From a virus, in IMG/VR virus record IMGVR_UViG_3300025072_002799, positions 47,203 to 111,202 of that record: 64,000 nt of DNA. One strand, given 5' to 3'. A program made the translations under genes and the position numbers. Position 1 is the first letter of the stretch. The number at the start of each line of letters is the position of its first letter. Below are positions 11,362-62,704 of this stretch, one piece after another. Under the pieces are notes generated by a model. The model did not search any database, was not told the origin of the DNA, and saw only the letters and a program-made list of their open reading frames with translations.

Positions 11362-12852
11362 ATGAGAACTTTCGGACAATATCTTGAAGAAAATGCACCT
11401 GAAGAACCAGTTATGGCCACTGCTGTGGAGCCAGTTGACTTAGATGCAAGCTTGGATGCAATGGTAAACTCTTTAGTAGTAGACCTTAAAAAACGCATTA
11501 AATCCGCAATTCCACAAAGGGAAAAGAAGAAAAACCTTTTTGACCGATTTGGGAAGTGGTGGAAAGATATGAACGACCCAAATTATGAGACGCCCTACAC
11601 ACCTGGACATCGCATGAATCAAAATCGTGCTGCTGGGCTTCATACTGGGCAAGCCAGCGATTTGGGAGAGTCCGTGATCCCTATTGAGGTTTATAATTTC
11701 TTTAAGGAGTCTGCCGAGAAGATTTGCGAAGCAGAAGCTCATGACATAGATTCGCCAAATTTGCATGGAGATCCAAGCAGATATGGAACTTATGAATTTA
11801 GCCCAAATCCAGAAGTTGCAGCAGCAGCTAGAGCGGGAAGACAGCCTCCACAATCATCTCAGCACTTAGGTCCTGGCATGACTCATGTTGGAGGGAATTA
11901 TTATCACAATCAAGAAACAGGGAAGACTCAACAGATCAATCCAGTGGCTCAGTTGGGAATTTATTTAGATGGTGAATTTAAGAAAAAATTGAAGGGAATA
12001 TTAAGCGCCCATATGAAAAACGCACAAAGCAACAAAGACATAGAAGCTGGAAACATACCTGCCGCACCAAAAGCGCCTCAGGCTGCTGGTCCAAATGATC
12101 CACCGACAGCACCAACAGCACCAAAGTTTTCTGATGGACCCGCTTCTGAAAGACCTCCTGTTGGACCTGGACCTTCATTAACAGATGACAAAGCAACTTC
12201 CGCTTCTTCTGCAAAGCCAGTTTTAAGTCCAAATGACGATCACAAAAAACTAGTGGCTTCTGCCGACAGCAAAAAAACAGACGAAGAAAAGGCTGAAGTG
12301 TATTTGCCAAATTACAAACAAAATCACACTGCACAAGAAGTAATGGATGCTGTAGATAAACTTATGGATGGTGGAAAAGCTTTTGATGATACAATTGTAA
12401 GTGTGCAAGATTTTAGAGATGACTTAAAAACTGTGTTAGGTGTCAAAATAAAACCTAAATCAACCCCATCTGACTTCAATCAAGTTGATGAAGATGAAAG
12501 TAGCAGTAAGTTAATCAACATGCTTGGGAACAAAAGTGATGAACAACAGGCTGAATTGCTTTCTCCTGGTTATGAAGAAAAAGGTTATAAAGTTGATGAT
12601 ATTTTGCAAGGCGCTAAGAGTCTTCAACAACATGACAAGAAGAAGAAAACTGTTAAGCAATTCCGTGATGGACTTGATCAATATCTTGGATTGACAATTG
12701 GACACGCTGAATCCAATATGGTTGACAGATACAAGCAAATGTTGAGAGAGCAAGATCTAAAAGGCTACATGACACCAGTGGTAAGATGGAAAGTGGACGA
12801 TTTGCCCGTTTCTGAACGAGCAAATTATTACCGTCAACTAATGCGTAATTAA
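11362..12852 (+). CDS. Putative internal head protein with capsid-targeting-like N-terminus
   Basis: 496 residues. The N-terminus MRTFGQYLEENAPEE fits the shared hydrophobic-x-x-aromatic-L-x-E motif, and YLEE offers an (I/L)xE site of the kind cut by gp21-type proteases. The middle is Pro/Ala-rich linker (~215-285). The C-terminal part repeats a ~60-residue unit twice (AEVYLPNYKQNHTAQEVMDAVDKLM ... FRDDLKTVLG; AELLSPGYEEKGYKVDDILQGAKSL ... FRDGLDQYLG). Packaging into the head is inferred. It converges on and overlaps the GlpX gene by four bases. Confidence 0.7.
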   Translation: MRTFGQYLEENAPEEPVMATAVEPVDLDASLDAMVNSLVVDLKKRIKSAIPQREKKKNLFDRFGKWWKDMNDPNYETPYTPGHRMNQNRAAGLHTGQASDLGESVIPIEVYNFFKESAEKICEAEAHDIDSPNLHGDPSRYGTYEFSPNPEVAAAARAGRQPPQSSQHLGPGMTHVGGNYYHNQETGKTQQINPVAQLGIYLDGEFKKKLKGILSAHMKNAQSNKDIEAGNIPAAPKAPQAAGPNDPPTAPTAPKFSDGPASERPPVGPGPSLTDDKATSASSAKPVLSPNDDHKKLVASADSKKTDEEKAEVYLPNYKQNHTAQEVMDAVDKLMDGGKAFDDTIVSVQDFRDDLKTVLGVKIKPKSTPSDFNQVDEDESSSKLINMLGNKSDEQQAELLSPGYEEKGYKVDDILQGAKSLQQHDKKKKTVKQFRDGLDQYLGLTIGHAESNMVDRYKQMLREQDLKGYMTPVVRWKVDDLPVSERANYYRQLMRN

Positions 12853-13775
12853 TTTCCGTGTTCTGCCGTAACCCATCTGATAGTTTTGCTTTCAGATCTC
12901 ATGAACACTGAGTTAGTGGTCGGTTTCGCTCTATTCCACTTAACACCTCTCAACAGACTGCCATCGGTGATTCCCGTTCCAGCAAACGCACACTCTCCTT
13001 TAACTAATTCATTTTCATCCAAAATAGGCTCAGAAGACTCTCCTTCTTTAGTGCATTCTTGACCTTGTAGCCCTCCACCCAAGCATTTGATCGCACAAGC
13101 GGACAGAATAGCCTCTGGCGAGCCTCCAATGCCATAAAGGATGTCTATGTCACTATCTGGAAGGCAAGCCGCAACAGCCCCAGAAACGTCACAATCTTGA
13201 ATTAATTTAATTCTGCACCCTAGTTCTCTTAATTCTTTGATTGCCTCATGATGTCGTGGTCGATCTAAAATGCATACCAACACCTGTTCTGGCTCCTTTC
13301 CTGTTGCCGAACAAACCAATTCTATGGTTCTTTCTAGTGGGTCGTTTAATTTTAATTCTACTTTACTTGCTATTTCAGGTCCGTATGCCAACTTTCTCAT
13401 ATAATACGAAGACGGACTAAACATAGCTCCTTCTAGTGCGACAGAAATGACGCTCATAGCTTCTGGTCCAGAAGTTACAGTTGGAGTTGTTCCTTCAATT
13501 GGATCTATTGCTATATCATTGAATTTTCCGTGGTATCCATCGCATGACCCCCACCTACTTCCGATTTTCTCTCCTGCGAACAAGCCATATGACTTATCCT
13601 TTTCTCCTTCGCCTATTACAATCTTTCCAGCAAAGTCCATTCCATTAAGACGATCTCTCATTGCATCAGTAGCGGCTTTATCTGATTCTAGTTTATTTCC
13701 GCTTCCGACCCACTTTGAGCCTGCTATTGCTCCTGCTTCTGTAACTCTAATTAAATCAAGGCTTATATGTTTCAT
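12849..13775 (-). CDS. glpX: Class II fructose-1,6-bisphosphatase (GlpX-type)
   Basis: 308 residues, slightly shorter than typical bacterial GlpX (about 320-340). Family motifs are seen in order: KIVIGEGEKDKSYGLFAGE (metal-binding IGEGE), DIAIDPIEGTTPTVTSGP (substrate DPxEGT), ILYGIGGSPEAILSACAIKCLGG and the closing GVKW ... TNSVFMRS. The family hydrolyses fructose-1,6-bisphosphate, and in cyanobacteria also sedoheptulose-1,7-bisphosphate. It ends an operon with 13772 and 13990 (ATGA overlap). All key motifs are intact, so activity is plausible. A central-carbon enzyme of this type in a phage would count as an auxiliary metabolic gene. Confidence 0.88.
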   Translation of the reverse strand: MKHISLDLIRVTEAGAIAGSKWVGSGNKLESDKAATDAMRDRLNGMDFAGKIVIGEGEKDKSYGLFAGEKIGSRWGSCDGYHGKFNDIAIDPIEGTTPTVTSGPEAMSVISVALEGAMFSPSSYYMRKLAYGPEIASKVELKLNDPLERTIELVCSATGKEPEQVLVCILDRPRHHEAIKELRELGCRIKLIQDCDVSGAVAACLPDSDIDILYGIGGSPEAILSACAIKCLGGGLQGQECTKEGESSEPILDENELVKGECAFAGTGITDGSLLRGVKWNRAKPTTNSVFMRSESKTIRWVTAEHGN

Positions 13776-20494: not shown

Positions 20495-21412
20495 ATGAAG
20501 AAATATAAAGAATGGACTCTAGGCGTTATTTCTATTTTAGGTCTTATTATTTTAAGCGTTGCATTTGCACCTGATGAAAACAAAATACTTTACAATCACC
20601 CTCTTGACAACATGCCAGTTGTTGACGGTCCTGTCTACAAAACAAACACTGTTGCCCCACAGGAAGATAGAGGAGAAGAATATCGCACATGGCTTGCAGC
20701 CAGTGTAAGAGTTAAGGTTGGCAAATTTTATGGCTCTGGAACAATCTGTTATTACGATGCAGAAAAAAAGGAAGCGTGGGTCATTTCATGTGGTCACTTA
20801 TGGAGTGGAACAAAAAATGCTGGCGCTTTAAATATGGGTACGGCAGAAATATCTGCTTGGTATCACAATGAAAAAAAGCTTGCTTTTCCAAAAAAGTATA
20901 AAGCGAAAGTAATCTTTTACAGTAACACAAAAGGATATGATGTATCGTTGCTGAAATTCACTCCAGATTGGGAACCCGAATATTTTACAATTGCTCAATC
21001 AGATTATAAAATTGAAGTCGGCAAAACATATCATTCTACAGGATGTGATTCAAGCAAAGAGGTCGCAAGATATGAAGTTGAAATTTTAACAGTTGGATCT
21101 CGACCTGGAGTTGACACAAGAGCAAAAAAAAATAGCCCACGACCTGGAAGATCAGGAGGGGGGCTACTTACAAATGATGGATATTACATTGGCACATGTT
21201 GGGGAACAACGGATAAAGTAAATGGAAACGGACAAGGAATATTCACATCAATACCTTCGATTAGGAAACATTTCAAAAGTCAGGGATATGAATGGTTATT
21301 GAATTTAACGCCACCTAATGGCGCTAGAACAATTCCTATAATAGACAGGAACAATCCTGGCGCAAGGTTTCCAATAGATTATATTCCATTTCCATTCAGG
21401 AATATGTTTTAG
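20495..21412 (+). CDS. Trypsin-like serine protease, membrane-anchored or secreted
   Basis: 305 residues behind AGAGGTGG. Residues 8-25 form one hydrophobic segment after MKKYKEW, a signal anchor or signal peptide. The chymotrypsin-fold triad is visible: H101 in ISCGHLW, D149 in GYDVSLLKF and S220 in RPGRSGGGLLTNDG. The product would act outside the cytoplasm, on envelope or extracellular proteins. It heads a region rich in envelope genes (lipoprotein, MscL, M28 peptidase). Such proteases are rare in phages; the target is unknown. Confidence 0.85.
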   Translation: MKKYKEWTLGVISILGLIILSVAFAPDENKILYNHPLDNMPVVDGPVYKTNTVAPQEDRGEEYRTWLAASVRVKVGKFYGSGTICYYDAEKKEAWVISCGHLWSGTKNAGALNMGTAEISAWYHNEKKLAFPKKYKAKVIFYSNTKGYDVSLLKFTPDWEPEYFTIAQSDYKIEVGKTYHSTGCDSSKEVARYEVEILTVGSRPGVDTRAKKNSPRPGRSGGGLLTNDGYYIGTCWGTTDKVNGNGQGIFTSIPSIRKHFKSQGYEWLLNLTPPNGARTIPIIDRNNPGARFPIDYIPFPFRNMF

Positions 21413-26584: not shown

Positions 26585-27247
26585 TTAGTCTTTTTTAGGC
26601 AATTTAGGAGGAGGCAGTTCATAAAACTGTATATCGCCAGGGATTTTATAGTTATAACTCCCACTTCCTTGCCCTTGCCCATCGCCTTTTCCGTCGCCTT
26701 TGCCCTCTCCATCGCCATCTCCATCGCCATCTCCTTCTCCTTCCATGCCACCATCTTTGCCACGCTTGCCATAAAATTTCTTGCCCTTAGCAATTCCTTT
26801 CTTCAACTTATTTATTTGCTCTCTAGCCTCTTTGGAATAAGGGAGTTTATGCAATCTTGGCTCATTTCTTGATTTGGGAGAAAAATTAATTAGATATTTT
26901 TCTAGAAAAGAGTCTTCTTCATAAGACTCGTCTGGAGTTTCATCGTCTTTGTCTTTTTCAATCTTTATTTCCTTGACCCAAACATAAACCGCTCCTGGCG
27001 TTCCATTTCTCTTATTTGGCTCTTTAACTTCTGCCCAATAAATTCTAAATGTTTGGGGAAGAGGACTATCTGAAGGCCACCCAAACAAATTGCCAACCGA
27101 GTTAAATACGGCGAAACTAAAATATAGAGAAAGAACAATGAATGCACACTTCAACCACCACCATCCCCTTGCGCCAATGATTAGCCATAAAGCCATTACC
27201 ACCAAAACTACAAAAGAAAGCGGTATTCCAACTGTATCAAAATTCAT
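26585..27247 (-). CDS. Membrane protein, third gene of the ExbB/ExbD-like operon
   Basis: 220 residues. Two N-terminal transmembrane segments (IPLSFVVLVVMALWLIIG, then WWWLKCAFIVLSLYFSFAVF) are followed by a periplasmic or cytoplasmic domain. A Gly/Asp/Glu/Lys repeat (GEGDGDGDGDGEGKGDG, ~170-190) sits near the Pro-rich C-terminus. The start lies four bases after the ExbD-like gene. It has no recognised family. Position suggests it forms a complex with the two upstream proteins. Confidence 0.65.
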   Translation of the reverse strand: MNFDTVGIPLSFVVLVVMALWLIIGARGWWWLKCAFIVLSLYFSFAVFNSVGNLFGWPSDSPLPQTFRIYWAEVKEPNKRNGTPGAVYVWVKEIKIEKDKDDETPDESYEEDSFLEKYLINFSPKSRNEPRLHKLPYSKEAREQINKLKKGIAKGKKFYGKRGKDGGMEGEGDGDGDGDGEGKGDGKGDGQGQGSGSYNYKIPGDIQFYELPPPKLPKKD

Positions 27248-27251
27248 CTTA

Positions 27252-27947
27252 CTATCCTTCTAAATTGTTGTATTCTTCATATTCTTCACTTTCTTCACTT
27301 TCTTCACCCTCTTCAATTGATGGCGGCTCTATACCTCCGTCGAAGTCTTCGCCATTGTTCTGAGATCGTTGTATTATATTTTTGGGATCTTCATTCACAT
27401 CAGTTATATTCCCATCTTTATCTACACTAAAACGAAACGCAGTTCTTGAATCACCATTTTTGGCTAAAGTAACAGTCCTAGATGCAATCAAAGACAGGCT
27501 TGGATTTATTTTCTCCGCGATTATTGTGACCTCCACCGGCCTCTTGTCACGCTTGGTGTAGGCATGAACGTTGACGACATACTCTCCAGGGACGACTCCA
27601 CGTAATGTTATTATTTCCCTGTTCTCTTTATATTCAACTACGGTTCCATGAGGAGTATAGACCCTATCATTCCTGTTTCCTAAATCATCTCTATCCAAGT
27701 GCATTAGACCAGCTTCTCTACTATTGAAGTAAACAATTTCGCCATTTGGATCTTCCATGTAAATATCAATGTCATCATTGAATTCAACTGGCCATGTCAT
27801 GCTGATTATGAAATCGGCAAATACATTGACTTTTTTATCATCCTCAGATGGATTGATGAGCAAAAAGGAAATTAAAAATAACGCCCCAAACACCAATATA
27901 GTTCCAAACAAAAGATCAATTAGGGGCGTATTATTTTGATTATTCAT
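27252..27947 (-). CDS. ExbD/TolR-like protein with DUF2135-like domain
   Basis: 231 residues. The N-terminus TPLIDLLFGTILVFGALFLISFLL has the one-helix layout of ExbD/TolR/MotB, with the aspartate (D11) in the helix that carries the proton path in that family. After it comes a ~120-residue domain (DIDIYMEDPNGEIVYFNSREAG, then VVPGEYVVNVHAYTKRDKRPVEVTI) like DUF2135/YfaP-type beta sandwiches, rather than the usual ExbD domain. The tail is acidic. It is three bases downstream of the ExbB-like gene. Confidence 0.75.
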   Translation of the reverse strand: MNNQNNTPLIDLLFGTILVFGALFLISFLLINPSEDDKKVNVFADFIISMTWPVEFNDDIDIYMEDPNGEIVYFNSREAGLMHLDRDDLGNRNDRVYTPHGTVVEYKENREIITLRGVVPGEYVVNVHAYTKRDKRPVEVTIIAEKINPSLSLIASRTVTLAKNGDSRTAFRFSVDKDGNITDVNEDPKNIIQRSQNNGEDFDGGIEPPSIEEGEESEESEEYEEYNNLEG

Positions 27948-27950
27948 GAA

Positions 27951-28463
27951 TTAAATATCTTTGTTTAATGACTTGTGTGTTTTGATAGATTGTCCCAAGA
28001 TGAAATATTGTAGTTGCAACAACATTCCACAAATTAGACCACTTGCAGTCGTATAAAATGCGGTAGAAGCACCAAGCCCAATTGTTTGCAACAAATTGAT
28101 TTTGGCTTCTGCCGTAGTCAAATCCATTTCATCAAAAGATGAGAACATGATGGTAAGTCCAATGATGGTTCCTAACATTCCCAACTGGAAAAAGGCACCA
28201 CACACAAAATTGCCCACCTCCTCCAGCCTCTCAAATTTAACTACCATCTCATCTTCAATATAAATGTCTTGTCTTCCCCACACCCAAACTTTCCATCCAC
28301 ACCAAGTTGTCATAAGACCAAATATTGCTGCAATTGCAAAGCTTATTTTAGTGGCATCTTTTTCCCAAACAATTTCTGCCAATCCAGACTGCCAAAAAGC
28401 AATTGCACCAATCGAAATAAGTACAACTAACAACCACCATTTTAAAAATAAAGCGTATTTCAT
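27951..28463 (-). CDS. ExbB/TolQ/MotA-like proton channel protein
   Basis: 170 residues from the ATG at 28463, with GGAG seven bases before; a longer TTG start would read through the terminator hairpin. Four hydrophobic segments are present. The core LGMLGTIIGLTIMFSSF ... IGLGASTAFYTTASGLICGMLL is the MotA/TolQ/ExbB signature (GLLGTVxGM ... A-L-TTxxGL). Partner proteins of this family use the proton gradient to drive work across the envelope. The first gene of a three-gene operon. Confidence 0.82.
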   Translation of the reverse strand: MKYALFLKWWLLVVLISIGAIAFWQSGLAEIVWEKDATKISFAIAAIFGLMTTWCGWKVWVWGRQDIYIEDEMVVKFERLEEVGNFVCGAFFQLGMLGTIIGLTIMFSSFDEMDLTTAEAKINLLQTIGLGASTAFYTTASGLICGMLLQLQYFILGQSIKTHKSLNKDI

Positions 28464-28474
28464 AAGTTTTCTCC

Positions 28475-28508
28475 AAAAAAAAAGCCTGCCCAATAGTGGG
28501 CAGGCTTT
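28475..28508 (-). terminator. Rho-independent terminator
   Basis: AAAGCCTGCCCA / TGGGCAGGCTTT, twelve base pairs with a four-base loop, is followed on the minus strand by nine T. It ends the transcript of 28533-28853 and separates it from the ExbB-like operon. Confidence 0.92.
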
Positions 28509-29245: not shown

Positions 29246-30418
29246 TTAATTATGGTTGTGTTCCTCGCCACCAAAAGGAGATTCTGGGTGGCCGTGATCA
29301 TGCGTGTATTCCATTTCTTCGAATGAAGCATGGTCAAATACAGGAGTTTTTTCTGATTGACATATTTGCCAAATCAAATCAAAGCAATATTTAGAAACTT
29401 GCTCTACTCCCTGATAATCTATCTTATCAGCAGTATCATCTGGCGTGTGGTAATATCGGTGAAGCCCCGTATGCAAAAAAGCCACTGGGACTCTTTTATT
29501 ATAGAAGGAGGCATGGTCCGATCCTCCACCCTTTCTGCTGGTGATCTGTTTTGCAAAAGCGTACTTGCTGTTGAGTCCATCAATTATACGACTTATATCA
29601 ACAGAACTATCTCCTCCATGAAACCCTGCAAAGTAAGCTCCCTTACCAAGATAACCAACCATGTCTAGATTAACCATCGCAACATGCTTTGTCATACTAG
29701 GTGAGTTTATCGGAAATTTAGGATTGTTGCAATAAAATCTAGAACCATGTAATCCCATTTCTTCGGCTGAGTACCACTGAAACACAATGGTTCTTTTGTT
29801 TTTGCCTTTAAGGATTGAAACCGCTTTTGCCATTGCAAGCAAAGCCGTAGATCCTGATGCATTATCGTCCGCACCATGATGAACTTCTGTGGTTCTTCCG
29901 CGAGACATGGACGGACCATATCCTACGTGATCTAGATGAGCGCCAACAACAACGATTTCGTCTTTTAATTCTGGGTCGTTTCCTTCAACCCACGCATATA
30001 CGTTATTGCACCAATCGTCGCCCACTTCTCTGTTCGGTCCAGGGTTTATTCCGCTAATCCTACGTCCAATATCTTTGGATGTGAATTTGTGGAACATAAC
30101 ATTCAGTCCCCATTCTTCGCACTTTTTCTTTACGAAGTCTTCTGCTTTCCTATGACCCCTCTTTCCAGTCATTCGACCTTCAAGATCATCTGATGCTAAG
30201 TAATAAAGATTTTTCTTTATTTCATCTTCTTTGATAGAATCTAAAGCATCGGAAAAGGTCTTTGGCTTAGGAACTTCAACCTCAACTTCAGGAGTAACCT
30301 CTGGAGTGACTTGAGGAGGATCAACAACATCAACCCTATTCATTAAAGCCATGCCAACAATGCCGATTGCTAGTAAAACAACTACCAATAACAACTGATT
30401 TTTATTTACGCCCATCAT
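29246..30418 (-). CDS. M28-family zinc peptidase, membrane-anchored
   Basis: 390 residues. Residues 8-26 form an N-terminal hydrophobic anchor, followed by a Pro/Glu/Val linker. All M28 metal motifs are present: GAHLDHVG (H161), HHGADDNASG (D184), SAEEMGLHGS (E219, E220), VNLDMVG (D252) and HTPDDT (H324). M28 enzymes are co-catalytic di-zinc aminopeptidases or carboxypeptidases, usually exported. The C-terminus is His-rich (HDHGHPESPFGGEEHNHN). An intact exported M28 peptidase is exceptional in a phage; peptide scavenging or envelope processing are guesses. Confidence 0.88.
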   Translation of the reverse strand: MMGVNKNQLLLVVVLLAIGIVGMALMNRVDVVDPPQVTPEVTPEVEVEVPKPKTFSDALDSIKEDEIKKNLYYLASDDLEGRMTGKRGHRKAEDFVKKKCEEWGLNVMFHKFTSKDIGRRISGINPGPNREVGDDWCNNVYAWVEGNDPELKDEIVVVGAHLDHVGYGPSMSRGRTTEVHHGADDNASGSTALLAMAKAVSILKGKNKRTIVFQWYSAEEMGLHGSRFYCNNPKFPINSPSMTKHVAMVNLDMVGYLGKGAYFAGFHGGDSSVDISRIIDGLNSKYAFAKQITSRKGGGSDHASFYNKRVPVAFLHTGLHRYYHTPDDTADKIDYQGVEQVSKYCFDLIWQICQSEKTPVFDHASFEEMEYTHDHGHPESPFGGEEHNHN

Positions 30419-50498: not shown

Positions 50499-51374
50499 AT
50501 GGATTTCTCTAAATGGCTAACAATAACAGAAGCTAAGTCTGACAAGATAATCGTATATCACGGAACGGTTTACGACAATCTAAGCGGTATAATGTCTCAA
50601 GGTCTTATCCCAGCGCCACCAAAAAGAGCTTGGGGGAAAGATGATGATACAAGTTATTATTCTGCCAGCAGAAAATCATTAGAAGGTATCTACGTAACAA
50701 CAAACCTTATGACTGCTGTAAGTTCCACAAGCAATGCCGCTAATCGTGGAAAAGATGGAATAATTGTCATTGCTGAAGTGCAACCAAAGACTGGATTTGT
50801 AGACGAAGATGACATGAACATGTTCGTTTCTGCTGCCCCAAATGAATACATTGTTAAACTTATTCATGTTGCCATTCAATCAAAGTCAAAAGATCCAATA
50901 GTAGAAAAATATTTTGACAAATACAAAGACAATCTAAAACATAAATTATCTGAATTAGTCAAAGACCCTCATCCAAGTATGATGAAAAGGCTTAGTCCTC
51001 TATTCTGGCAACTTTTTGTTAAATCCATAGCTAGACAAATGGTGTATGTTGATAAACGTACTTTCAAATATGATTATCCAGGCATACGAATACCAGACAA
51101 GGCTACAGCAGAAAAAGACTTCCTTAGAATAAAAGAAGAACTTACAAAAACATTAAAAATGTTTGCAAATCCTGCAAATCTAAAGGATGAAGGATTTAAT
51201 TTTACGACCCGTATTATGGAGCCAATAAGGTTCTCTGGGGCGAATAAAATTATTGCAATTGTGTCATATCCAAGAAGCGACGATCCACCAGAAGTTCTAT
51301 ACGGAACAGTCCCAGGAAAGTTTATAAAAGACTATGAGCAAGTGATTGGTAAATGGAAACCTAAGACAGAATAG
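50499..51374 (+). CDS. ADP-ribosyltransferase-like protein with capsid-targeting-like N-terminus
   Basis: 291 residues. MDFSKWLTITEA fits the shared motif with ITE as the (I/L)xE site. IIVYHGTVYDNLSGIMSQGLIP is the first strand-helix of the ART fold (Y/H-G-T ... G-L), and GIYVTTNLMTAVSST the second. The catalytic glutamate is not certain. T4 injects the ART Alt with its DNA to modify host RNA polymerase; a parallel is inferred. It converges on the oxidoreductase gene by 14 bases. Confidence 0.65.
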   Translation: MDFSKWLTITEAKSDKIIVYHGTVYDNLSGIMSQGLIPAPPKRAWGKDDDTSYYSASRKSLEGIYVTTNLMTAVSSTSNAANRGKDGIIVIAEVQPKTGFVDEDDMNMFVSAAPNEYIVKLIHVAIQSKSKDPIVEKYFDKYKDNLKHKLSELVKDPHPSMMKRLSPLFWQLFVKSIARQMVYVDKRTFKYDYPGIRIPDKATAEKDFLRIKEELTKTLKMFANPANLKDEGFNFTTRIMEPIRFSGANKIIAIVSYPRSDDPPEVLYGTVPGKFIKDYEQVIGKWKPKTE

Positions 51375-52953
51375 CCTCTGCTGCATTTTTCCCACACGCT
51401 CCAACTACACCGCCACCAGGACTGGTTGCCGCTCCGCATAGATACAGCCCTTTAAGGGGCGTTTTATATTTTGATCTAAATGGACCCATTTGATGTGGTA
51501 TCATTGAACCTTGGAATATGTTTCCTCCGGTCATGCCATAAGTTCTCTCTATGTCAAGAGGTGTTAAGACGTGATGGTGAAGTATTCTCTCTCTGATGTC
51601 TGGGGCGTACTCCTCTAATGTGTCAATGCAAGTATTATAAAACGCCCTCTTGACATCATCATCATCCCAACTCATTCCGTCCAAGTGATATGGAGCATAT
51701 TGAACAAACATTTGCATCACATGATGTCCTTCTGGAGCCAAAGTTGGATCTACGACAGAAGGAGTTGTTATTTCAAGAACTGGTCTTCTGCTAAACCTTC
51801 CCATTCTTGCATCATGGTATGCTTGCTCGATGTACTTCAAATCGGGGGAAATGTGTATTGTTCCATTGTAACAGCCTTCTCTAGATTCCCGTCTTTCCAT
51901 GCCAGCAAATTTAGGCAATCCTTTAATTGCCATATTGACTTTCGCACTGGCGGAAGAGTAGTCAATGTTATTGACTCGTCTTACATATGATTCAGGGAAA
52001 TTCTCTGGGTTTGCCCATCTCATTGTGGTTGTTGCATCTACACTTGAAATTATATTTTTGGCACTCAAAGTTCTTGGAATCATTCTTTCGCCAGCATCTT
52101 TGACTCCAACTCCAACTGCCCTTCCTTTCTCGACATCTATCGCTGTTACTTCATGATTAAGTAAAATATCAACGCCCAAGTCTTTGCATGTTTTTTCAAG
52201 AGCATCGGCTAATCCTCCCATTCCTCCCTCTATGTATCCCCAAATCCCTCTCTGTCCACCAGCCTCGCCCATAACATGATGAAGCAAAATGTAAGAGGAG
52301 CCTGGATTGCTAGGGGATGTAAAAGATCCAATGATTGCATCGCCAGCCAATGATGCTTTTAATACATCACTTTTAAACCAACGATTCAAAATTGTTGCAG
52401 CATCACCAGTAAGGACTTCAATTGCCTCAGGTATTTTATCGCCCAATCTGCCGAATTTACGCAGCATATTCAAAGCTTGTATGCCAGCTTTTATTTTTTT
52501 AAAAACGCCCTTAGCCATAATATCAGGTGGTGCTTGCATAGCCATTGGCTCAATCACTTCTGCAAGATTTGTAAGTTCTTCCTCATACTTAGCATATGCA
52601 TCAGCATCAGGAGCACTATAGAATGATATTTCTTTATGGTTCTGCTCCTGATCTCCACTTAAAAGAAGACCTGGACCATTAAGATCTGGGGTAAAAGAAG
52701 ATGGATTTCTAGGAAGTATTTTAAGACCATTTTCCACAAGCCTTAAATCTTCCATTATTTCAGGAAGAAAAAGACTTATTACATAGGCTGCGGGAGATAT
52801 TTTATATCCAGGCCATAATTCCTCAGTTGAAGAACAGCCTCCTAAAATATGTCTTTTTTCAAGAACGCAGACTTTTTGACCAGATTTGGCAAGATATGCC
52901 GCAGTGACCAAACCGTTATGACCACCGCCTAAAATTATTGAATCGTATTTCAT
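51361..52953 (-). CDS. PYROXD2/phytoene-desaturase-like FAD oxidoreductase
   Basis: 530 residues, full family length. The N-terminal FAD-binding motif is IILGGGHNGLVTAAYLAKSG ... VCVLEKRHILGGCS (GxGxxG, then E and GG), and the C-terminus has GLYLCGAATSPGGGVVGACGKNAAEAI, as in NAD(P)/FAD-dependent amine-oxidase-type enzymes. The middle (GGMGGLADALEKTCKDLGVDILLNHEVTAI) matches the same family. Substrate unknown; PYROXD2-type and carotenoid desaturases are relatives. A metabolic gene of this type is highly unusual in a phage. Confidence 0.85.
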   Translation of the reverse strand: MKYDSIILGGGHNGLVTAAYLAKSGQKVCVLEKRHILGGCSSTEELWPGYKISPAAYVISLFLPEIMEDLRLVENGLKILPRNPSSFTPDLNGPGLLLSGDQEQNHKEISFYSAPDADAYAKYEEELTNLAEVIEPMAMQAPPDIMAKGVFKKIKAGIQALNMLRKFGRLGDKIPEAIEVLTGDAATILNRWFKSDVLKASLAGDAIIGSFTSPSNPGSSYILLHHVMGEAGGQRGIWGYIEGGMGGLADALEKTCKDLGVDILLNHEVTAIDVEKGRAVGVGVKDAGERMIPRTLSAKNIISSVDATTTMRWANPENFPESYVRRVNNIDYSSASAKVNMAIKGLPKFAGMERRESREGCYNGTIHISPDLKYIEQAYHDARMGRFSRRPVLEITTPSVVDPTLAPEGHHVMQMFVQYAPYHLDGMSWDDDDVKRAFYNTCIDTLEEYAPDIRERILHHHVLTPLDIERTYGMTGGNIFQGSMIPHQMGPFRSKYKTPLKGLYLCGAATSPGGGVVGACGKNAAEAILS

Positions 52954-60744: not shown

Positions 60745-60769
60745 TTTTTTTGGTTTGCATTTTGTAGAT

Positions 60770-61173
60770 CTTGCACATACACCTCAAACATAGGTTATAT
60801 CATCTATTCCAGAACGCCCGTCTCACACGACCTTGCACATACACCTCAAACATAGGTCATATGCATCTAGAATAAAACTTTTGCATCATAACTTTTGCTT
60901 GCACATACACCTCAAACATAGGTCATATGCATCAAAAAAAAGAGACTGGTCAAGCCACTATAGCTTGCACATACACCTCAAACATAGGTCAGAAGAAGAA
61001 GTTGGCTTGCACATACACCTCAAACATAGGTCATATGCATCAGGCTGTCTGATAGCCCTTACGCCATCACTCTTGCACATACACCTCAAACATAGGTCAT
61101 ATGCATCAAAGGACACGGCGAATCAATCTACTCATTGCTTGCACATACACCTCAAACATAGGTCATATGCATC
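60770..61173 (-). CRISPR. CRISPR array, 7 repeats of 36 bp, mostly 30-bp spacers
   Basis: On the plus strand the repeat starts CTTGCACATACACCTC and ends GGTCATATGCATC. Repeats begin at 60770 (35 bp, two changes), 60832, 60898, 60964 (cut to 27 bp), 61006, 61072 and 61138; five are identical and full length. Spacers are 27, 30, 30, 15 (truncated unit), 30 and 30 bp and all differ. Decay is at the left, so the leader is probably at the right and transcription leftward, the same strand as the nuclease. In that direction the repeat ends TGTGCAAG, 5' of the spacer, as in type V crRNAs. An ACCT/AGGT inner stem is possible. Confidence 0.93.
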
Positions 61174-61234
61174 AGTTTGAATGTAAGTTCTTGTTTTCAA
61201 AGATCTTAGGTGTTTTCATAGGATTAAAAAACCT
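61174..61234 (-). other. Leader/tracr candidate between array and nuclease
   Basis: 61 bases separate the nuclease stop from the first repeat. It is AT-rich, with ACACCT (minus strand, 61208-61213) complementary to AGGTGT of the crRNA repeat and CCTATG (61217-61222) shared with it. The match is too short to call a tracrRNA anti-repeat. Confidence 0.3.
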
Positions 61235-62704
61235 CTACTCGGCCCTCATCAATCTTTCCAAAGGTTCGAAAAAATCACATTTTGAGTTCAAGTCCTCAGT
61301 TGATTTCACACTATTTTTACAGACTAGCCGAGACAATTCTCTGACTTCTTTTTCACTTAACGCTGCCTGTAGGATTGTACATGATCCTGACCAAGACTCT
61401 CGTGCAAGGTCCGCGTTAAGCACATTGTTTTCAACAAAAGTCATTAAGTATGCCGAGAACAAATGTCTATCGGATTCTACGCCGCATTCACAAATGTGCC
61501 AACGTTCACTTAATTCCTTCTTCTTAATATTACCACAAAAACATGTTTGACTCAAGCTTGTTTTGAATGTATTTATTTCATTAAAATTACCACCGCTTTT
61601 TGTAACTCCATATTTTAAAATCTCAATAAATTGTGATGGTGCAAACCCATTAATGCTTCGACTAAATCTCTTGTCTTTTTGCCATTGTCCATAACTATTT
61701 GTTTCTACTCTAAAATCATTGCCCATTAACATTATGTGATTTGCTAATTTGCGATGATAGTTCTTCCTTTCGGCGGATTTCTTTCTATGAAGTTCTTTAA
61801 TTAACAACTTTGTTTCTAACATTCCTTTGGAGCGTTTTATTTTTGTTCCTTTTTTATAAGTTCCATTTTCATTAAAAGAGTCTGGGTTGTGCTGTCTGGT
61901 CTGTCTATCTAACTTTCTTTGATGCACTCTTAATTGTCTGTTCAGATTTTTAGAATCTTTTGTCATTAAAGGGAATTTCATAGCCATATTTGATGAAACT
62001 ACATCAATAAACCTTGGTCCAACATCAATTCCAACCTTCCCTTCTCCAAGTTCATGATCTGTTGGTGATTGTCCATCAATGACCAGTTGTGCATAGTATT
62101 TTGTCTTTTTAAATTCTGTTCGTCTAATCATACGAACATACCTAACATTTTGCTCTGCTCCAAACATAGTGTAACTATCATTTGGATCAGCTTCTATTTT
62201 AAGCTTTTTGAATTTAACAAAATAAAGATTGAGATCCCCCTTTTTTTCTTTTTTCCACTTTGCACAAGATCCGGTACGTCCTTCGATTGCATTGAATTGT
62301 TTATAACTGCTCATCTTTGGTCTGCCCTTCTTTCCAATAGCAAATTGATTAACAGAGGAAAAGGCAAGCCCAGTTGTAGCGGAAACAGTGTTAGCTCCAA
62401 TGTGATGATTGATCCATGATTTTGTAAATTGTGTAGACCAATTTTTAAGGCAAAACTCTGTAAATTTAAATTCTGTTCTTAATTCCTTGAAAGCTTCTTT
62501 TTTTTCTTTTCCATCTTTCATCTTACAAGCACGACTGTATCTCTTTGTTCTCCTCATTTCTTTTAGCCTTTTTAAGGCTTCCCCAACAACAGCGTTTCTG
62601 ACTTGCCTATTGGCTTCAAACGCCTTATCCAACTTCAAAGCTTGATGCGGAGTTGGTCTAAGAGCTATTTCGCAGATGTATCGTTCTTTTTTTTCTTTTG
62701 CCAT
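61235..62704 (-). CDS. Compact Cas12/TnpB-like RNA-guided nuclease candidate
   Basis: 489 residues. RuvC-I is VGIDVGPRFIDVVSS (D227), RuvC-II VETNSYGQWQK (E334), and RuvC-III CGVESDRHLFSAYL (D412). The zinc ribbon is CFCG (C388, C390) and CECG (C405, C407), each CxC rather than TnpB's usual CxxC. SINGFAPSQFIEILKYGVTKSGG is the TnpB/Cas12 helix before the ribbon. The N-terminal half is basic and helical (RxxRNAVVGEALKRLKEMRR), consistent with a wedge/REC part. Size is between TnpB (~400) and Cas12f (400-550). Next to a CRISPR array and with no cas1/cas2/cas4 beside it, it is called a minimal type V effector. All catalytic acids are intact. Confidence 0.85.
   Translation of the reverse strand: MAKEKKERYICEIALRPTPHQALKLDKAFEANRQVRNAVVGEALKRLKEMRRTKRYSRACKMKDGKEKKEAFKELRTEFKFTEFCLKNWSTQFTKSWINHHIGANTVSATTGLAFSSVNQFAIGKKGRPKMSSYKQFNAIEGRTGSCAKWKKEKKGDLNLYFVKFKKLKIEADPNDSYTMFGAEQNVRYVRMIRRTEFKKTKYYAQLVIDGQSPTDHELGEGKVGIDVGPRFIDVVSSNMAMKFPLMTKDSKNLNRQLRVHQRKLDRQTRQHNPDSFNENGTYKKGTKIKRSKGMLETKLLIKELHRKKSAERKNYHRKLANHIMLMGNDFRVETNSYGQWQKDKRFSRSINGFAPSQFIEILKYGVTKSGGNFNEINTFKTSLSQTCFCGNIKKKELSERWHICECGVESDRHLFSAYLMTFVENNVLNADLARESWSGSCTILQAALSEKEVRELSRLVCKNSVKSTEDLNSKCDFFEPLERLMRAE

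Follow-up and report, generated by a model that had tools for sequence, protein, structure and literature searches.

Why would a phage carry three tightly packed genes for membrane proteins of the kind that form ion-driven motors, and what could such a set do in an infected cell? The genes lie in a window of 64,000 nucleotides, the whole stretch of DNA analyzed here, which corresponds to positions 47203-111202 of the 111,202-base virus record IMGVR_UViG_3300025072_002799. By its sequence the virus is a T4-like phage, as the same record encodes a terminase, a portal protein, and a T4-type major head protein, and the first-pass annotation, made from the letters alone, was thus right to place the genes in a phage. 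All three are encoded on the minus strand between positions 28463 and 26585, in the order P1 (27951-28463, 170 aa, ATG start), an ExbB/TolQ/MotA-type channel subunit, P2 (27252-27947, 231 aa), a protein in the position of ExbD/TolR, and P3 (26585-27247, 220 aa), the third component. The reading frames leave 3 nt between P1 and P2 and 4 nt between P2 and P3, so that the tight packing described earlier, with gaps of 3-4 bases, holds.

Immediately upstream of the P1 start codon, a consensus scan found a terminator-like hairpin of 12 pairs followed by a T run (28481-28508, minus strand); the trio may therefore rely on read-through or on an unseen promoter. In this region the scan gave 8 terminator-like sites against 3.6 expected, while the promoter scan remained at chance level (18 found, 16 expected). 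Further upstream, a peptidase of the M28 family with an N-terminal hydrophobic helix is encoded at 29246-30418 (minus strand; Pfam Peptidase_M28, 3.9e-42); it shares the strand of the trio here, but the association is not conserved elsewhere. In other parts of the window a phytoene-desaturase-like FAD oxidoreductase was recognized by eye (51361-52953, minus strand), and there is a CRISPR-like array with seven copies of a 36-nt repeat at mostly 66-nt spacing (60769-61192). Beside the array lies a gene for a 489-aa TnpB/IS605 OrfB-like protein (61235-62704, minus strand; phrog_506 transposase, 1.6e-45), and the two together are possibly a miniature phage CRISPR-Cas12-type locus.

P1 belongs to the MotA/TolQ/ExbB family on sequence grounds. 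It matched the Pfam family MotA_ExbB with an E-value of 2.5e-7 and 30.9 bits, where the cut-off is 22.9, and so did 15 out of 15 aligned P1 members (E <= 0.1). When a P1 profile was compared with the PDB, matches were obtained to ZorA, MotA, TolQ, and ExbB, with ZorA as the best (7.7e-5). In the PDB profile alignment Thr99 and Thr139 of P1 fall on the polar-ring threonines of TolQ, and both are 100% conserved among the viral sequences. The proton path has been reported to comprise Asp23 of TolR together with Thr145 and Thr178 of TolQ (PMC12215075), and by alignment Asp11 of P2 and Thr99 and Thr139 of P1 correspond to these residues. Both the proposed ExbB/ExbD-type pair and its reading as a proton-driven motor thus found support, in the MotA_ExbB match of P1, the single helix of P2 with its conserved Asp, and the conserved threonines of P1.

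P2 is modeled by AlphaFold2 (mean pLDDT 85.4) as one ExbD/TolR-like helix (residues 7-31) that carries Asp11, followed by a periplasmic beta-sandwich (46-185) and an acidic, disordered C-terminal end. The helix Asp is invariant in an alignment of 16 rows and present in 102 of 106 rows of the larger one, where the four exceptions are all bacterial and every viral row has the Asp. The chromosomal P2 proteins of loci L179, L180, and L181 read FDPxxVMLFK, with no Asp at position 11 and a Lys at 15; judging from this missing Asp, these trios may be devoid of ion transport. In the beta-sandwich the acidic residues D59, D61, D85, D87, D88, and E111 are invariant. None of the 16 P2 members matched the ExbD/TolR Pfam family (E <= 0.1), and P2 had no Pfam match to DUF2135 (PF09906). 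The earlier description of this part as DUF2135-like consequently stands only as a remote resemblance: Pfam does not assign the family, but a comparison with a profile of DUF2135/YfaP-type proteins gave an hhalign probability of 62.8% and an E-value of 7.2e-5 over 96 columns, with a template of just four sequences, and the P2 outer domain and YfaP/DUF2135 have a W, D.D, P.G motif in common. An unusual outer domain on an ExbD-like protein, as had been proposed, is nevertheless what the model and the family searches indicate. Among phage proteins, the domain matched phrog_1735 (6.5e-7), folds within large phage proteins in BFVD and, weakly, a virion protein in the PDB. The fold search against solved structures returned no match at E <= 0.001, and low-E fold matches to coronavirus and leukocidin proteins were dropped as generic beta matches with TM-scores near 0.1.

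For P3 the AlphaFold2 model (mean pLDDT 77.8) predicts helices at 3-25 and 30-54 together with a small alpha/beta domain; the Gly/Asp tail is modeled with low confidence. This matches the earlier description of a two-helix protein with such a tail. Besides this Gly/Asp-rich arm, P3 has a conserved end of FYxLPPP type. P3 is membrane-anchored by the model and had no family match to TonB or TolA; its fold search found no PDB match at E <= 0.001.

The same three genes recur far beyond this record. A search with P2 found 223 relatives on viral contigs and another 396 in genomes of bacteria, of which the 80 most similar to the query were used from each group; a scan for close viral relatives succeeded with P2 but gave no confirmed relative with P1 alone, and a search with P3 alone recovered no phage record. 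Among these best 80 of each, the three profiles lay close together on one strand in all 79 further IMG/VR loci and in 75 of the 80 bacterial loci. Across eight pairs of related viruses, dN was well below dS for P1, P2, and P3 where dS could be estimated, and all three genes are thus under purifying selection. With this co-location and dN below dS, the trio is beyond chance. The first-pass annotation would have been refuted by relatives that lack the proton-path residues or have broken frames. For viruses this check came out in its favor: every viral P2 of the 106 rows keeps Asp11, and Thr99 and Thr139 of P1 are 100% conserved. A shortened P3 reading frame was seen in one relative, L006.

The expectation that the same trio would be found in other phages was borne out not only by the IMG/VR loci but also by phage isolates of Rhizobium and by 16-3, a classical temperate phage, where the genes are annotated as hypothetical or carry no functional annotation. 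P2 is present in all 17 Pootjesviridae-type records from Rhizobium that a gp47 marker recovered and absent from the two phiM9 records; in Pootjesviridae the trio is placed between gyrase and late sigma/recombination genes. In phage 16-3 it consists of p038, p040, and p042 with small genes interspersed, a few kb from immX and with a trypsin-like protease nearby. Trio-bearing phages include very large ones, with genomes of up to 527 kb. In Sinorhizobium phage NV1.1.1 a homing-endonuclease-like gene was seen by eye between P1 and P2 (L187, 5147-5884), and in a prophage-like locus (L178, 8211-12730) genes for an endolysin, a protease, and a small phage protein lie close to a divergent trio. A fourth constant gene was sought in the viral loci and not found; the trio alone is constant amid varying neighbors. 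Trypsin-like proteases were detected by motif in 6 of 90 viral and 1 of 80 bacterial loci, an association that is suggestive only, as the amount of sequence per locus differs and the scan misses some. In the window itself, a protein encoded at 20495-21412 (plus strand), with no PHROG match, clusters with a secreted trypsin-like protease family whose members lie near the trio elsewhere, in six viral loci, and a GlpX-like fructose-1,6-bisphosphatase recognized by eye (12849-13775, minus strand) resembles genes found close to the trio in several further viral loci. A literature search, mostly without subscription journals, found no description of an ExbBD/TolQR-type motor encoded by a phage and built from these three parts. 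Publications on phage ExbB, jumbo phages, cyanophages, and superinfection exclusion contained nothing about the trio, and a paper on a relative of phage 16-3 does not mention its genes.

On a tree of 112 P2 sequences the viral/bacterial label changes 3 times, as compared to 35 in shuffles, and a single clade with an SH-aLRT of 99 unites 43 bacterial sequences. This indicates that the viruses did not acquire their copies recently and separately, each from its own host. The Rhizobium phages are deepest at the midpoint root, which serves for drawing only. The tree would allow bacteria to be nested within the viral lineages, bearing in mind that it is unrooted by outgroup and that the samples were picked by similarity to the query. 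It is conceivable, if rather doubtful, that the motor family arose or diversified in viruses and that one bacterial clade was then taken into PQQ/lanthanide alcohol-oxidation sets. If so, the trio would represent a distinct family of phage-encoded envelope motors driven by ions, set apart by its outer domain and by its third component.

The strongest link to other genes, one that the first-pass annotation had not anticipated, is the tie of the bacterial copies to PQQ/lanthanide alcohol oxidation. Their neighbors, assigned by NCBIfam, include PqqB, PqqE, PQQ methanol/ethanol dehydrogenase, PQQ_ABC components, and the PedC permease, and a PQQ-system neighbor was present in 42 of 74 bacterial trio loci, counted inside the fetched flanks, many of which end at contig edges. 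P2 is carried by 16 out of 398 Pseudomonadota genomes, 14 strongly and 2 weakly. All 14 strong carriers have a PQQ alcohol dehydrogenase, which occurs in 110 of the 398 overall (hypergeometric P 8e-9, a figure inflated by related genomes), and all 14 have the PedC permease, found in 56 of the 398 (P 2.5e-13 if the genomes were independent). As the genomes in this test are related, both P values overstate independence. The two weak carriers, the prophage-like L178 and L177 with a chromosomal divergent trio, are without PQQ alcohol dehydrogenase. In a second bacterial context the trio stands with YkuD, DUF302, and a VWA-FHA protein; together with the L177 genome, this shows that the module can occur independently of PQQ. 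Genes for PQQ alcohol dehydrogenase, PQQ_2, and PedC were found in no virus tested, and the phage copy is thus cut off from the partners that define the setting of the host copy.

A published account of the lut cluster assigns it a role in the transport of lanthanides (PMC7391723) and does not describe the trio. Sinorhizobium meliloti, which uses the lanthanide-dependent XoxF (PMC12628762), is the host of the trio-bearing phage NV1.1.1. The MotA/TolQ/ExbB genes MEALZ_3990/3991 are reported to go down together with the mxa genes upon replacement of calcium by lanthanum (PMC6277846); as a putative counterpart of the trio, they fit an energized part beside PQQ dehydrogenases. For the bacterial side, these data point to an energized component beside a Ped/Lut-type transporter and PQQ dehydrogenases. 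As the trio is intact in many different phages and near chromosomal relatives accompany PQQ/lanthanide genes, the set is real, old, and unstudied.

Our preferred, still tentative, reading is that the phage and host trios form an ExbBD/TolQR/MotAB-type ion motor in the inner membrane, in which the third component is peculiar to the set. In such a motor, five P1 subunits would encircle two P2 helices, and protons or another ion would flow past the P2 residue Asp11 and the ring formed by Thr99 and Thr139 in P1. The resulting motion would be relayed to P3 and to the beta-sandwich that P2 places in the periplasm; P3, in the place that TonB or TolA takes, could then reach an envelope partner with its flexible arm and LPPP end. 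The bacterial trio belongs with the genes for PQQ/lanthanide alcohol oxidation and Ped/Lut-type transport, and the job of the phage trio would most likely be to support, in the infected cell, the envelope task that the chromosomal copy performs. Against this job speaks that every PQQ partner looked for was absent from the viruses tested. Should it work as a motor, phages would be investing genes in energizing the host envelope during infection, and what they need there would become testable.

The first-pass annotation had suggested, by analogy with Zorya defense, a role in superinfection exclusion or membrane-potential sensing. Here the motor would sense an incoming phage at the envelope or alter the membrane potential and so block competitors. 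Of the PDB entries matched by the P1 profile, ZorA is indeed the best, P1 matches several ZorA models, and the position of the cassette differs between phages, with immX a few kb away in 16-3. The ZorA likeness, however, is that of a common motor core also matched by MotA, TolQ, and ExbB. Furthermore, P2 and P3 match no defense model, no nuclease or other effector constantly adjoins the trio in the viral loci, and the chromosomal copies have metabolic rather than defense surroundings. We regard superinfection exclusion by the trio as possible but doubtful. A phage motor that replaces energy transfer of the general Ton/Tol type and sustains nutrient uptake or outer-membrane upkeep during infection would explain the three-part layout, shared with ExbB-ExbD-TonB and TolQ-TolR-TolA, and could suit the very large phages among the carriers. 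It is unlikely, though, given that by family search P2 is without the ExbD/TolR periplasmic domain and P3 without TonB or TolA similarity, and that no TonB-dependent receptor is a constant neighbor in the viral loci.

The trio could also act late, weakening the envelope together with periplasmic proteases. The endolysin and protease near the prophage-like L178 trio and the trypsin-like protease near the trio in 16-3 and some other loci would agree with this, but lysis genes are not constant neighbors, the Pootjesviridae trio lies between gyrase and late sigma/recombination genes, and the motif scan, which misses some, places such proteases in just the 6 of 90 viral loci, all of which makes a lytic role improbable. 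Finally, the MotA/ExbB core could form an ion channel or sensor rather than a force-transmitting motor. The few bacterial copies without Asp11 (4 of 106 rows, and likewise L179-L181) suggest that some members may have lost motor function. Since the viral copies all keep Asp11 and the Thr positions, and the periplasmic parts of P2 and P3 are conserved along with the channel, we consider this explanation very improbable.

The proposed inner-membrane motor can be set against the known systems. With Zorya ZorAB it shares the MotA/TolQ/ExbB-type core. Zorya is defined by a long ZorA tail, ZorB, and effectors (PMC11890865), and P1, with 170 aa, has no long cytoplasmic tail. Its best score against the ZorA models of PADLOC is a weak 23.6 bits, covering 61-86 residues of models with 420-699 positions; no PADLOC model is matched by P2 or P3, which leaves no ZorB match, and no ZorC/D or ZorE effector accompanies the trio, the sole constant set in the viral loci. 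Membership in Zorya was rejected on these grounds, and the suggested link to defense was not upheld. The MotAB flagellar stator is alike in its motor core and in the Asp of the B-subunit helix, whereas P2 has no OmpA-type peptidoglycan-binding domain by family search and the flagellar context is absent. TolQ is the best-aligned E. coli relative, with threonines that match Thr99 and Thr139 of P1, but the trio set has no TolA, TolB, or Pal homologue and the outer domain of P2 differs. ExbB-ExbD-TonB has the same Pfam channel family, a single-helix partner with a proton-carrying Asp, and a third membrane-anchored periplasmic protein. In the trio, by contrast, the ExbD domain is replaced by a beta-sandwich that remotely resembles YfaP/DUF2135, P3 is predicted to have two helices and does not match TonB, and P1 is shorter. 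Chromosomal homologues of the trio adjoin and co-occur with the Ped/Lut-type ABC and PQQ alcohol dehydrogenase set, while viruses have the trio without the rest. In YfaP/DUF2135 and phage virion proteins a similar domain is found, and here that domain is joined to a motor helix. From its sequence, the trio would work like a member of the wider 5:2 ion-motor kind.
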